From: an uncultured Verrucomicrobiota bacterium
GTDB lineage: Bacteria; Verrucomicrobiota; Verrucomicrobiia; Limisphaerales; UBA9464
Reading direction: 5' to 3'
Length of the DNA stretch: 43,715 bases
NCBI GenBank assembly: GCA_903916195.1
Contig: CAIWVP010000050.1
Span: 1-43,715, forward strand
Below, piece after piece: positions 19,682 to 22,900 of this stretch; position 1 is the first letter of the stretch, and each line of letters starts with the position of its first letter. Under the pieces are notes generated by a model that did no database searches, was not told the origin of the DNA, and saw only the letters and a program-made list of their open reading frames with translations. The position numbers and the translations under genes were made by a program.

Positions 19682-21082
19682 TCACGGTTGTTTGTAACCG
19701 AGGAGCTGGCGTTGCTTGATCATCTCGGCGACCTGGGACGGGACGGAATCTTCCCAGCCCGGCAGGCCGGTCTGGATCTTCCAGAGCACGTCGCGGCTGA
19801 GGATGTCCAGGTTGGCCTCGTTGATGTCGCGCATCCCCTGGATGTAGAGGTTCTGGGAAAGGTAGCTGTAGAGATGCTGCAGATGCGGCGCCACCCGGAG
19901 GTTCCCGGCGGTGATGATCGCGCCCGACGTGGGGTCCTTGTAGGGGTAGGTGTAGAGCTTGAGTGAATTGCGGAAGAGACGTCCGAACGACTCGAGGATC
20001 CCGCCGTCGAGTTCCGCGTAGTATTTTTCGTCGAAGAGTTCTTTGAGCGTGGGCACGCCCATCACCACGCCGACCGGGAGCTTGGTGTAGCGGGCCATGT
20101 ATCCGGCGAGCCGGAAGAACTCGCCGTAGTTGGTGATCAGCACCGGATGGCCCAGCGTGCCGAGCAGGTCGGCGCGGTCGAGGAAGTCGCGATGGTTGAT
20201 CTTGCCCTCGACGTTCAGGTTCTTGAGGGTCATCTCCATCACGACCAGCACGTCCTGGCCCGCGACATCGGGTTCTTGGACGAACTGCGCGCGGGCGTAG
20301 CGCAACATGTCCAAGGTGACCTTGGTCGGGGGCCGGAAGCTTCCGCGTTCGATGAGGACCGGCCGTTTGTAGAGCTGCTCGGCGGGTTGGACGATCTCGC
20401 CGTCCGGCGTGAACATCGCGGCGTTCGTCAGGCCGCGCTCGACGAGCTGCAGGCTGATGAGGCGGTTGTCGACCTTCTCGAACGCCGGTCCCTCGAACTG
20501 GATCACATCGACCTCGATGCGGGCGATGGAGAGGTTGTCGATGAGCCCCAGCAGCACTTCCTGGGTGTCGCTGCCCGTGTAGAGCGCGGCGTGCACGAGG
20601 TTGACCCCGAGGATGCCGATCGCCTCCTGCTGCTGGAGGTTCTCCCGGTCCCACATGCGGACGTGCATGAGGATGTCGTTCGATGGGCCGCCAGGTTCGG
20701 TCTGGAAGCGGATGCCCATCCAGCCGTGCGTCTCCTCGCGACGGCTGTAGCTCTTGGCCGTGACCGTGTCCGCGAAGACGAAGAACTTGGTGGTCGCCCC
20801 GCGTTGGCCGGCCAACCGTTCAACGATCAGCATGTACTCCCGCTCCAGCATCGCGAGCAGGCGGGCCTTGCTCACGTACCGTTCGTTGTGGCCGTAGATC
20901 GCGTCGCTCACGACCATGTCGTAGGCGGAGATGCTCTTGGCGATCGTCCCGCTCGCGCCGCCGACCCGGAAGAACCACCGGGCGACCTCTTGCCCGGCGC
21001 CGATCTCGGCGAAGACGCCATATTTCCCCGGGTCGAGGTTGATCTGAAGGGCCTTTTGGTGGGTGTCCAAGCGGTCGCTCAT
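19682..21082 (-). CDS. Conserved protein of unknown function (466 aa)
   Basis: The protein starts MSDRLDTHQKALQINLDPGK. It is soluble in appearance, with no signal peptide or membrane helix. Distinct blocks are FAEIGAGQEVARWFFRVGG (about residues 24-42), SAYDMVVSDAIYG, FVFADTVTAKSY, IGILGVNLVHAALY, NLSIARIEVDVIQFEG and FLDRADLLGTLGHPVLITNYGEFFRLAGYM. From memory, close relatives occur in several phyla and carry unhelpful labels such as TonB-dependent receptor or nucleotidyltransferase; neither fits what is seen. No catalytic motif was recognised. The frame is open upstream to 21220, but that part crosses a terminator hairpin, so ATG 21082 is chosen although no Shine-Dalgarno precedes it. Confidence 0.8.
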   Translation of the reverse strand: MSDRLDTHQKALQINLDPGKYGVFAEIGAGQEVARWFFRVGGASGTIAKSISAYDMVVSDAIYGHNERYVSKARLLAMLEREYMLIVERLAGQRGATTKFFVFADTVTAKSYSRREETHGWMGIRFQTEPGGPSNDILMHVRMWDRENLQQQEAIGILGVNLVHAALYTGSDTQEVLLGLIDNLSIARIEVDVIQFEGPAFEKVDNRLISLQLVERGLTNAAMFTPDGEIVQPAEQLYKRPVLIERGSFRPPTKVTLDMLRYARAQFVQEPDVAGQDVLVVMEMTLKNLNVEGKINHRDFLDRADLLGTLGHPVLITNYGEFFRLAGYMARYTKLPVGVVMGVPTLKELFDEKYYAELDGGILESFGRLFRNSLKLYTYPYKDPTSGAIITAGNLRVAPHLQHLYSYLSQNLYIQGMRDINEANLDILSRDVLWKIQTGLPGWEDSVPSQVAEMIKQRQLLGYKQP

Positions 21083-21170
21083 AGAGAAAGCAGTCGACCA
21101 CGGACCGGACGTCGGAACCAGCTTGAACACGTGACGTCCGCGAAATGGCAGCGGGTCCGGCGCCAGCCCC

Positions 21171-21214
21171 AAAAAAAACCCGCGACCTCGGTCGGTGAAG
21201 ACCTCGGTCGCGGG
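21171..21214 (-). terminator. Second of two tandem Rho-independent terminators
   Basis: On the minus strand CCCGCGACC (21214-21206) pairs with GGTCGCGGG (21187-21179). Inside it GGTC/GACC pair around a 6-base loop, separated by opposed GA/GA dinucleotides that could form tandem G-A pairs. An uninterrupted T8 run follows (21178-21171). Confidence 0.85.
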
Positions 21215-21218
21215 ATAC

Positions 21219-21259
21219 AAAAACCCGGGCGGCAGTCAGAGGATGACCGTCCGCCCGGG
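21219..21259 (-). terminator. First of two tandem Rho-independent terminators (end of candidate ncRNA)
   Basis: On the minus strand CCCGGGCGG (21259-21251) pairs with CCGCCCGGG (21232-21224). After a single bulged A, CGGTCA pairs with TGACTG (one G-U), closing a TCCTC loop. This gives about 15 bp, then T5 (21223-21219). Confidence 0.88.
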
Positions 21260-21398
21260 GGAATATTCAGAATCAGTTCTGTAGGACTTAGTGGGATATC
21301 CGTGCACGATGAACAACGCCGAGCACGAAACTGGTTGGGCAGAGAAAGAACAAAACAAACGTCTGCCCGAAAACTTGGGTCCCTTCGTTTCCGAAGCG
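21219..21398 (-). ncRNA. Candidate structured small RNA, about 180 nt, family not recognised
   Basis: Transcription from the promoter at 21404-21431 would start near 21398 and end at the first terminator. In order the RNA can form five hairpins. A 5-bp stem has a GAAA tetraloop (21396-21383). GGGCAGA/TCTGCCC (21368-21337) has an 18-base U-rich loop. CGTGC/GCACG spans 21327-21301. CAGAA/TTCTG spans 21281-21268. The terminator hairpin has loop TCCTC. The sequence is clearly less GC-rich than the flanking genes. No gene on this strand lies close upstream. No segment complementary to the terminator arms was seen in the leader, so an antiterminator switch is not evident and a free small RNA is favoured over a riboswitch for the 466-aa gene. 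It does not match tmRNA, 6S, SRP or RNase P motifs known to me. Confidence 0.6.
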
Positions 21399-21403
21399 GG
21401 CGA

Positions 21404-21431
21404 AAAATAGCGTGGCCGGCTCAGCTGTCAA
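21404..21431 (-). promoter_or_regulatory. Sigma70-type promoter of the candidate ncRNA
   Basis: A perfect -35 box TTGACA (21431-21426) is separated by 16 bases from TATTTT (21409-21404) on the minus strand. This is the best promoter match I found in the window. Confidence 0.65.
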
Positions 21432-21664
21432 CACCTGCCACCAACTAATTTTCGCTATCGTCGCTGCAAAGAACCAACTCTGTACAGCAGCTACGACGCC
21501 GATCCAGGGAGGTTGTTCAAAGCGGGACAAAGTTTTTTCGCGGAGGGCTCTGCTGGGTCGCGAAACGCGTTGCGCCCCTTCGCCGAGGCCCTTACGCAAA
21601 GGGCGTGAACGATCCTGTCCGCCCGTCCTCATGGTCCGCACGTCCCTCCAGGACGGACCGTCCG

Positions 21665-22900
21665 ATGCGCCATCATGCGCAGCCCTTGCGTCCGCCCACG
21701 CCCCCCAAGCTCCCGCCCGAGGGAAGCGAGAACTGGCCCAAGCCCTGGGCCCAGATGCGGACCTTCAGCTATCAACCTTCGGTCTACCCGGCGATGCTGG
21801 GGGATGTCTCGGCGGGCGCACGACCGGGCGATCTCGTCCACGTGTTCGACAAGAACGGCCGACCGTTCGGCGCGGGCCTCATCAACATCGGCGCCCGGGT
21901 CCCTCTGAGGGTCATCCACCACGGCGACCAACCGGTGGATGAATCCATCTTCACCGTGCTGCTCCACCGCGCGATCGACCTGCGGCTCGGGGCCCTCGAC
22001 CTCCCGTCCAAGACCGATGCTTTCCGGGTCATCAACTCGGACGCCGACGGCTTGAGCGGCCTCATCGTGGACCGGTTCGGGGACGTCCTGAGCGTGCAGG
22101 TGCATTGTCTCGGCATGTGGCGTCGTCTGCCGGAGCTTCTGGCACCGCTCCACGCGCGCTTGGGCACGGTGCGCACGGTGATCGAGGTGGACCCGGGCGT
22201 GGCCGGAAACGAGCGCATCCACGTCCAGGAACACCGGTCGGATCCGGTGCGGTCGGTCAAGATCCGCGAGCACGGCATCCGGTACGAGGTCGATTTCGAG
22301 GCCGGCCACAAGACCGGGTTCTTCTGCGACCAGCGGGAGAACCGCCGGCGTCTGGCCAAATGGACCAAGGACAAGCGAGTGCTCGACCTGTGCTGCTACA
22401 CCGGCGGGTTCGCGCTCGCGGCCAAGGTGCTCGGCGGCGCGGCCGAGGTGACCGCCGTGGACCTCGACGAGAAGGCGATCGCTTCCGCGAAGCGCAACGC
22501 GAACCTGAACCAGGCGCGTGTGGAATGGGTCCACTGCGATGCGTATCCCTACGCCCGCCAGATGCGGAAGGACGGGAAGAAGTTCGATGTGGTCGTCCTC
22601 GATCCGCCCAAGCTCATCATGGGCCGCGACGAGCTGGAGCAGCAGGAAGGCATGGAGAAATACGAGGACCTCAACAGTCTCGGCATCGTCATCACCGAAC
22701 CGGGCGGGCTCTTGGTGACCTGTTCATGTTCCGGGCAGCTGAGCGCCGAGGATTTCGAGCGGATGGCGATCCGGTCGGCGCACCGTGTCGGGCGCAAGCT
22801 GCAGTTCCTCGACCGCACCGGCGCGGGCGAGGACCACCCGGTGATGTCGAACTGCCCGGAGAGCCGCTATCTCAAGGTGCTTTGGGCACGGGTGTTTTGA
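21665..22900 (+). CDS. RlmI-like 23S rRNA (cytosine) methyltransferase
   Basis: The 411-residue protein has an N-terminal PUA-like domain (VSAGARPGDLVHVFDKNGRPFGAGLINIG region, about residues 45-85) and a class I SAM-dependent methyltransferase domain. Motifs are YEVDFEAGHKTGFFCDQREN, DLCCYTGGFALAA (motif I, near residue 240), AVDLDEKAIASAKRNANLN and VVLDPPKL (motif IV). VTCSCSGQLS near the end contains the Cys pair typical of m5C or related enzymes. RlmI methylates C1962 of 23S rRNA in E. coli; the exact site here is inference. The start at 21665 is one of several in-frame ATGs. The stop shares one base with the NHL gene start (TGATG). Confidence 0.85.
   Translation: MRHHAQPLRPPTPPKLPPEGSENWPKPWAQMRTFSYQPSVYPAMLGDVSAGARPGDLVHVFDKNGRPFGAGLINIGARVPLRVIHHGDQPVDESIFTVLLHRAIDLRLGALDLPSKTDAFRVINSDADGLSGLIVDRFGDVLSVQVHCLGMWRRLPELLAPLHARLGTVRTVIEVDPGVAGNERIHVQEHRSDPVRSVKIREHGIRYEVDFEAGHKTGFFCDQRENRRRLAKWTKDKRVLDLCCYTGGFALAAKVLGGAAEVTAVDLDEKAIASAKRNANLNQARVEWVHCDAYPYARQMRKDGKKFDVVVLDPPKLIMGRDELEQQEGMEKYEDLNSLGIVITEPGGLLVTCSCSGQLSAEDFERMAIRSAHRVGRKLQFLDRTGAGEDHPVMSNCPESRYLKVLWARVF

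Follow-up and report, generated by a model that had tools for sequence, protein, structure and literature searches.

Comparative evidence for a pseudoknotted small RNA family of the Limisphaerales with a boxA-like element and a pyrimidine terminator loop

The minus strand of a contig from an uncultured Verrucomicrobiota bacterium (the whole stretch of DNA analysed, 43,715 nucleotides, here called the window) carries a region of about 180 bases that is almost certainly a member of a real structured RNA family. The family is new, being in no Rfam family, while its kind, the structured bacterial small RNA, is known; on comparative grounds it is assigned to the order Limisphaerales, the order being named from record titles. 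What distinguishes it is the combination of a pseudoknot, a boxA-like loop and a pyrimidine terminator loop. The RNA is very probably encoded by an independent gene and active in trans.

Results

The first-pass annotation had described the region as a hairpin-rich unit of about 180 bases. The minus-strand unit folds with -66.5 kcal/mol (z -3.28), and 0 of 200 shuffled sequences folded equally well, in agreement with that description. The predicted features are collected in Table 1. Among the three stems that had been claimed, the P2 hairpin with its 18-base U-rich loop and the terminator were borne out, and the hairpin with the GAAA tetraloop is real only as a local feature, being confined to the window and its nearest relatives (L003, with a variant in L004) and lying outside the family core. 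The earlier account did not include the pseudoknot, P1 or the boxA-like element.

Table 1 Features of the RNA and its surroundings in the window.
Feature	Position	Strand	Basis or remark
-35 box TTGACA	21426..21431	-	sigma70-like site scan
-10 box TATTTT	21409-21404	-	sigma70-like site scan
Predicted RNA, ~180 nt	21218..21397	-	fold and inferred start
5′ hairpin, GAAA tetraloop	21383..21396	-	predicted fold
P1 5′ strand GGAC	21379..21382	-	predicted fold; P1 permutation test
P2 hairpin GGGCAGA ... UCUGCCC, 18-base U-rich loop	21337..21368	-	fold; P2 permutation test
boxA-like UGUUCUUUC in P2 loop	21344..21352	-	motif comparison
P3 hairpin	21298..21330	-	fold and covariation
Pseudoknot 5′ strand GUUC, in P3 loop	21311..21314	-	covariation and permutation
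P1 3′ strand GUCC	21284..21287	-	predicted fold; P1 permutation test
Pseudoknot 3′ strand GAAC	21276..21279	-	covariation and permutation
Intrinsic terminator hairpin and T5	21218..21261	-	stem 9+6 bp, one bulged A
Terminator loop UCCUC (family YCCYC), proposed seed	21239..21243	-	
Further terminator-like hairpin, followed by T8, past the RNA	21171..21214	-	

In an alignment of 49 sequences, compensatory changes, which the first-pass annotation had named as a means of checking the structure, are present at 26 of the 32 pairs of P3, the pseudoknot and the terminator. Across these helices 89.7% of cells are paired, compared with 74.5% after shuffling, a value as high being found in 0 of 500 shuffles, and pairing falls to 42-46% when the partners are slid by one base in the same alignment. 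The pseudoknot helix is 96.6% paired with four of its five pairs compensated, and its variants include GUACA/UGUAC, GUUCA/UGAAC, AUACA/UGUAU and GCAC/GUGC; the window has a four-pair form, GUUC/GAAC. The unpaired stretches flanking the helices are also conserved in the alignments.

Three helices were examined by a permutation in which partners are swapped between sequences, relatedness being uncorrected in all three tests. Own-partner pairing was 14.07 versus 11.45 permuted (sd 0.37) for the pseudoknot and 15.46 versus 13.53 (sd 0.32) for P1, both with 49 sequences, and 13.37 versus 11.72 (sd 0.25) for P2 with 81 sequences, restricted to those in which the boxA-like element is close to P3; in each test 0 of 5000 permutations reached the observed value. 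The P1 strand was taken as the best complement in a window of each sequence, so that single assignments are fallible and the permutation mean alone is relied on; by this assignment L094 and a few more have no P1. The RNA is present in tandem at L179 (3477-3600 and 3820-3942, plus strand) and L224 (1008-1137 and 1333-1461, minus strand). The two copies at L179 differ in P1 (GGAUUACG/CGUAAUCC versus GGUAAC/GUUACC) and in the pseudoknot (GACAC/GUGUC versus GGCAC/GUGCC), and by eye both helices are still paired in both copies. The architecture shown by these comparisons is a junction, closed by P1 and holding P2 and P3, in which the P3 loop forms a pseudoknot with the strand that follows P1; the RNA finishes with an intrinsic terminator, the loop of which is YCCYC almost throughout.

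A DNA search matched the region in 32 of 58 genomes, counting that of the window, and the 3′ half is its best-preserved part. R1, a covariance model built for the 3′ domain from 28 sequences, matches 44 of the 50 members of the window's family, and conservation on this scale shows that the region is no product of chance. R1 also matches 216 of 293 genomes sampled from the order, representing 93 of 118 genera, and in the R1 searches of family and order most genomes have a single match. A second model, built from 49 diverse sequences (R2), matches 68 of the 384 genomes of a class sample. All 68 belong to its 74 order members and none to the other 310, where the division into order and non-order genomes was read from the listing order. 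The absence of a match in the other 6 of the 74 possibly reflects gaps in draft assemblies or loss.

The phylum sample (288 genomes) yielded the window and two weak genomes, neither of which was judged to be a member. G627 (30 bits, E approximately 8e-4) has, where expected, a hairpin with CCCC in its loop and a short stretch of T, and pairing of P3 with the pseudoknot strand was not seen by eye. G624 (27 bits, at two places) shares only the terminator hairpin with its C-rich loop. This genome, from elsewhere in the phylum, has two such terminator hairpins (L221 1021-1125 and L222 946-1037, both minus strand), the remainder of the RNA being absent by eye.

A pattern scan of named genomes gave at least 116 stretches, 80 of which, as listed, were searched with R2. 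Among the matches listed, R2 confirmed 72 of these 80 loci, with labels that include Limisphaerales, Pedosphaera, Verrucomicrobia subdivision 3 or, in many cases, just Verrucomicrobia; the eight listed loci that gave no covariance match comprise seven labelled as other taxa and one (L144) with no taxon. The RNA is also present in records titled Akkermansia muciniphila (L126, L131, L141, L165 and L182) and Candidatus Omnitrophota (L114), which are probably mislabelled. The pattern was not found in viral contigs.

The promoter that had been claimed for the minus strand, TTGACA and TATTTT separated by a 16-base spacer, is present, and a scan of 20800-22000 gave no other sigma70-like site (mean of 0.1 in shuffled sequence). 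The start of the RNA was placed by inference about 7 nt past the -10 box. Of the 123 distinct members with enough upstream sequence, 84 have an acceptable -35/-10 pair, with a spacer of 16 or 17 bases in 71 of those 84. TTGACA itself is found upstream in 73 of the 123, a better figure than the 107 of 123 for TTGAY, which is weak evidence because this motif is common by chance in 180 bases. The claimed 15-bp terminator followed by T5 is likewise there, with the loop TCCTC; a simple terminator scan reported four sites and the one at 21261-21218 was not among them, probably because its stem is bulged. The hairpin with T8 that follows (21214-21171) had gone unmentioned in the first-pass annotation, and several members from the window's family also have a second hairpin after the RNA.

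Upstream in the window, a methyltransferase gene is transcribed divergently from the plus strand; it was recognised by domain search, and we take it to be RlmI-like. Downstream on the same strand, past the second terminator-like hairpin, is a gene for a protein of 466 amino acids (19682-21082, minus strand) with no Pfam match. This gene follows the RNA in 11 of 26 loci of the window's family and in 0 of 41 order loci, and was rejected as the target of a leader when the whole family is considered. Among recognised neighbours in the 41 order loci, the most frequent are the P-II gene (16) and dnaA (11), both upstream on the opposite strand and partly in the same loci; none of the eight genes searched for is near the RNA in 17 of the 41. 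A divergent P-II gene or dnaA is near the RNA in many families. No same-strand downstream gene recurs widely across the 41 order loci, and this variety of downstream genes makes a riboswitch leader very unlikely. The earlier proposal of a separate transcription unit encoding an sRNA, rather than a leader of the 466-residue gene, is supported by the RNA's own promoter and terminator, by the compensatory changes in its stems, by the lack of an Rfam match and by the lack of a downstream gene kept across the order.

With Rfam 15 at the gathering score there were 0 matches in the window and 0 in 20 homologous loci. In 20 further loci, searched with E up to 0.1, there were just a tRNA and a c-di-AMP riboswitch, both away from the RNA; weak Rfam matches at the RNA site were all under the cut-off. 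The first-pass statement that the RNA fits no common family therefore holds for the window and 40 homologous loci. The c-di-AMP riboswitch at L103 900-1061 (minus strand) exceeds the gathering score. The covariance model of 6S RNA (RF00013) has no match in the window or in its own draft genome. 6S RNA is present in 50 of 58 order genomes, 47 of them above the cut-off, and where the positions were compared (e.g. G005, G044 and G097) it is at places other than this RNA; identity with 6S RNA was rejected, as a separate 6S gene exists in the same genomes and the fold differs. A coding gene was also rejected, because the open reading frame at 21288-21641 ends within the RNA, has no Pfam match and is matched over its full length only in the near-identical L003. 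Hfq (PF17209) was found in 0 of 29 genomes, with controls positive in 5 of 14, which argues against an Hfq-dependent sRNA. No earlier description of such an RNA in Limisphaerales or Verrucomicrobia was found in the open-licence literature, where related papers were judged by title.

The boxA-like sequence of the window deviates from the motif GNUCUUUR at the last base, which is C. The motif precedes P3 in 87 of 123 distinct members, compared with 107 of 7828 windows, each 130 bases long, taken from the flanks, and is missing in 36 of the 123, the window's copy being among the deviating ones. It is present in 35 of 41 order loci and, at its weakest, in 15 of 26 loci of the window's family. The element is located in the P2 loop in many members and 5′ of P1 in others. 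In 9 of 12 rRNA loci the same core is found at the usual leader position, 121 to 151 bases ahead of where 16S begins; the remaining three have UCAUUGA at that position, and all 12 have the core behind 16S. GNUCUUUR also occurs upstream of 6S genes of the order, within 100 bases in 34 of 48 (L233-L240 and L283-L322). Among RNase P RNA genes, used as a control, only 2 of 30 have it within 120 bases upstream, or at most 2 of 29 well-placed ones, as locus L271 is misplaced (the contig ends). The NusB gene is present in 19 of 19 genomes. The consensus GYTCTTTAANA is that of gamma-proteobacterial boxA, from a study which, by its own account, left noncoding RNAs aside (PMC5725501). No earlier report of boxA in 6S RNA was found in the open-licence literature, judged by titles. 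We read GNUCUUUR as a putative cis element of some untranslated transcripts and as a candidate boxA; that it functions in cis is about as likely as not.

A script recognised a terminator loop of 5 nt in 111 of the 124 distinct RNAs, namely UCCUC (51), UCCCC (24), CCCCC (17), CCCUC (15) and others (4), such that YCCYC accounts for 107 of 111, a count that is inflated because part of the set was chosen by a pattern that includes the loop. The 13 RNAs set aside have no simple 5-nt hairpin by script, and most show the same letters by eye. An alignment made without the loop pattern has the same loop with few exceptions, and the loop remains pyrimidine while its closing stem covaries. The 16S rRNA ends in CCUCCU in 12 of 12 rRNA loci, to which the terminator loop is similar. 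The conservation of YCCYC, together with this resemblance, makes pairing with Shine-Dalgarno sequences plausible, and plausibly fits the anti-Shine-Dalgarno idea of the first-pass annotation. It is suggested, tentatively, that the C-rich loop may pair in this way; five nucleotides are short for specific targeting, and the conservation of the loop could instead serve protein binding or termination.

Discussion

The explanation that we favour, with moderate confidence, is a stand-alone, trans-acting and Hfq-independent RNA, the synthesis of which would be aided by boxA and which would repress translation through its C-rich loop. Transcription would begin at the TTGACA/TATTTT promoter, and in most members the boxA-like sequence would bring the NusB-S10 antitermination machinery onto the growing transcript, as happens on rRNA. 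The finished RNA would then work in trans, free of Hfq, its terminator loop pairing with purine-rich Shine-Dalgarno sequences and lowering translation of the target mRNAs, while the pseudoknotted 5′ domain may guard the RNA or bind protein. The absence of GNUCUUUR from 36 of 123 members, and its weakness in the window's own family, count against this explanation.

In Staphylococcus, sRNAs of the Rsa family and RNAIII bind Shine-Dalgarno sequences through UCCC loops (PMC3861533). Like those described there, the RNA reported here has a conserved hairpin loop with an accessible, C-rich sequence that could pair with Shine-Dalgarno sequences. Unlike them, it carries this loop on the terminator, has P1, P2, P3 and a pseudoknot, and differs in sequence, fold and phylum.

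Among the alternatives, a scaffold of an unknown ribonucleoprotein, in which the conserved 5′ domain and the loop serve to bind one protein or several and pairing with mRNA plays no part, is unlikely, though the least unlikely of them. The RNA is near-universal in the order, mostly with one copy per genome, and its conserved unpaired stretches next to helices are what such a scaffold might have; but there is no candidate protein, and a loop made up wholly of pyrimidines, held by a stem that covaries, is what a pairing seed typically looks like.

Distinctly less probable is that the finished RNA is a decoy, its boxA-like loop binding NusB-S10 and so tuning rRNA antitermination. There is a precedent in 6S RNA, which titrates RNA polymerase, and the presence of the element within the P2 hairpin loop of many members, the core shared with the rRNA leaders of the order and the presence of NusB would suit such a role. 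Nevertheless, 36 of 123 members, the window's included, lack the element or have it in changed form, its position moves to the 5′ side of P1 in some of the family, and its occurrence upstream of 6S genes is a better fit to a general cis role. Noncoding transcripts known to carry boxA include the leaders of rRNA and of CRISPR arrays, as described in PMC5725501 and PMC7862264. In most members the present family resembles these in a boxA-like core GNUCUUU, common to the rRNA leaders of the same order, and differs in that the RNA is short, the element is in its own hairpin loop in many members and the window copy is one base off. An RNA carrying two signals, in which the mature boxA loop would bind NusB-S10 and the pyrimidine loop would mask Shine-Dalgarno sequences, thereby tying ribosome production to translation, appears improbable to the same degree as the decoy.

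A cis-acting leader or riboswitch, with junction and pseudoknot sensing a ligand and the terminator controlling the gene behind (here that for the 466-residue protein), is very unlikely. Pseudoknotted riboswitches with a terminator have a junction, a pseudoknot and a terminator in a row, and the RNA shares this aptamer-like layout; the same-strand position of the 466-residue gene in 11 of the 26 family loci is also as expected of a leader. By contrast, this gene is not found behind the RNA in the order loci, no other same-strand downstream gene is widely recurrent, a second terminator stands ahead of the gene in the window, and an expression platform would not require the conservation seen in the terminator loop. 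That the RNA is a divergent 6S RNA can be dismissed as next to impossible, although it resembles 6S RNA in its size of about 180 nt, its free-standing nature, its order-wide occurrence and a boxA-like element, which is upstream of most 6S genes, and although its own draft genome has no 6S match. 6S RNA is a separate gene in the same order with another fold, and the RNA described here has no covariance match to RF00013.

The stand-alone RNA favoured here is found in an order that is abundant in soil, lakes and the sea. As a widespread and uncatalogued RNA, with a fold already constrained by covariation, it is a clear target for annotation. If the proposed pairing of its terminator loop is correct, it would be a model for broad translational control in bacteria without Hfq. 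boxA is known mainly from rRNA, and its use, if true, would be extended to 6S RNA and to a small RNA. Should the reading with two signals hold, boxA would, together with the boxA-led 6S RNA, be a general tag of regulatory noncoding RNA in the order.
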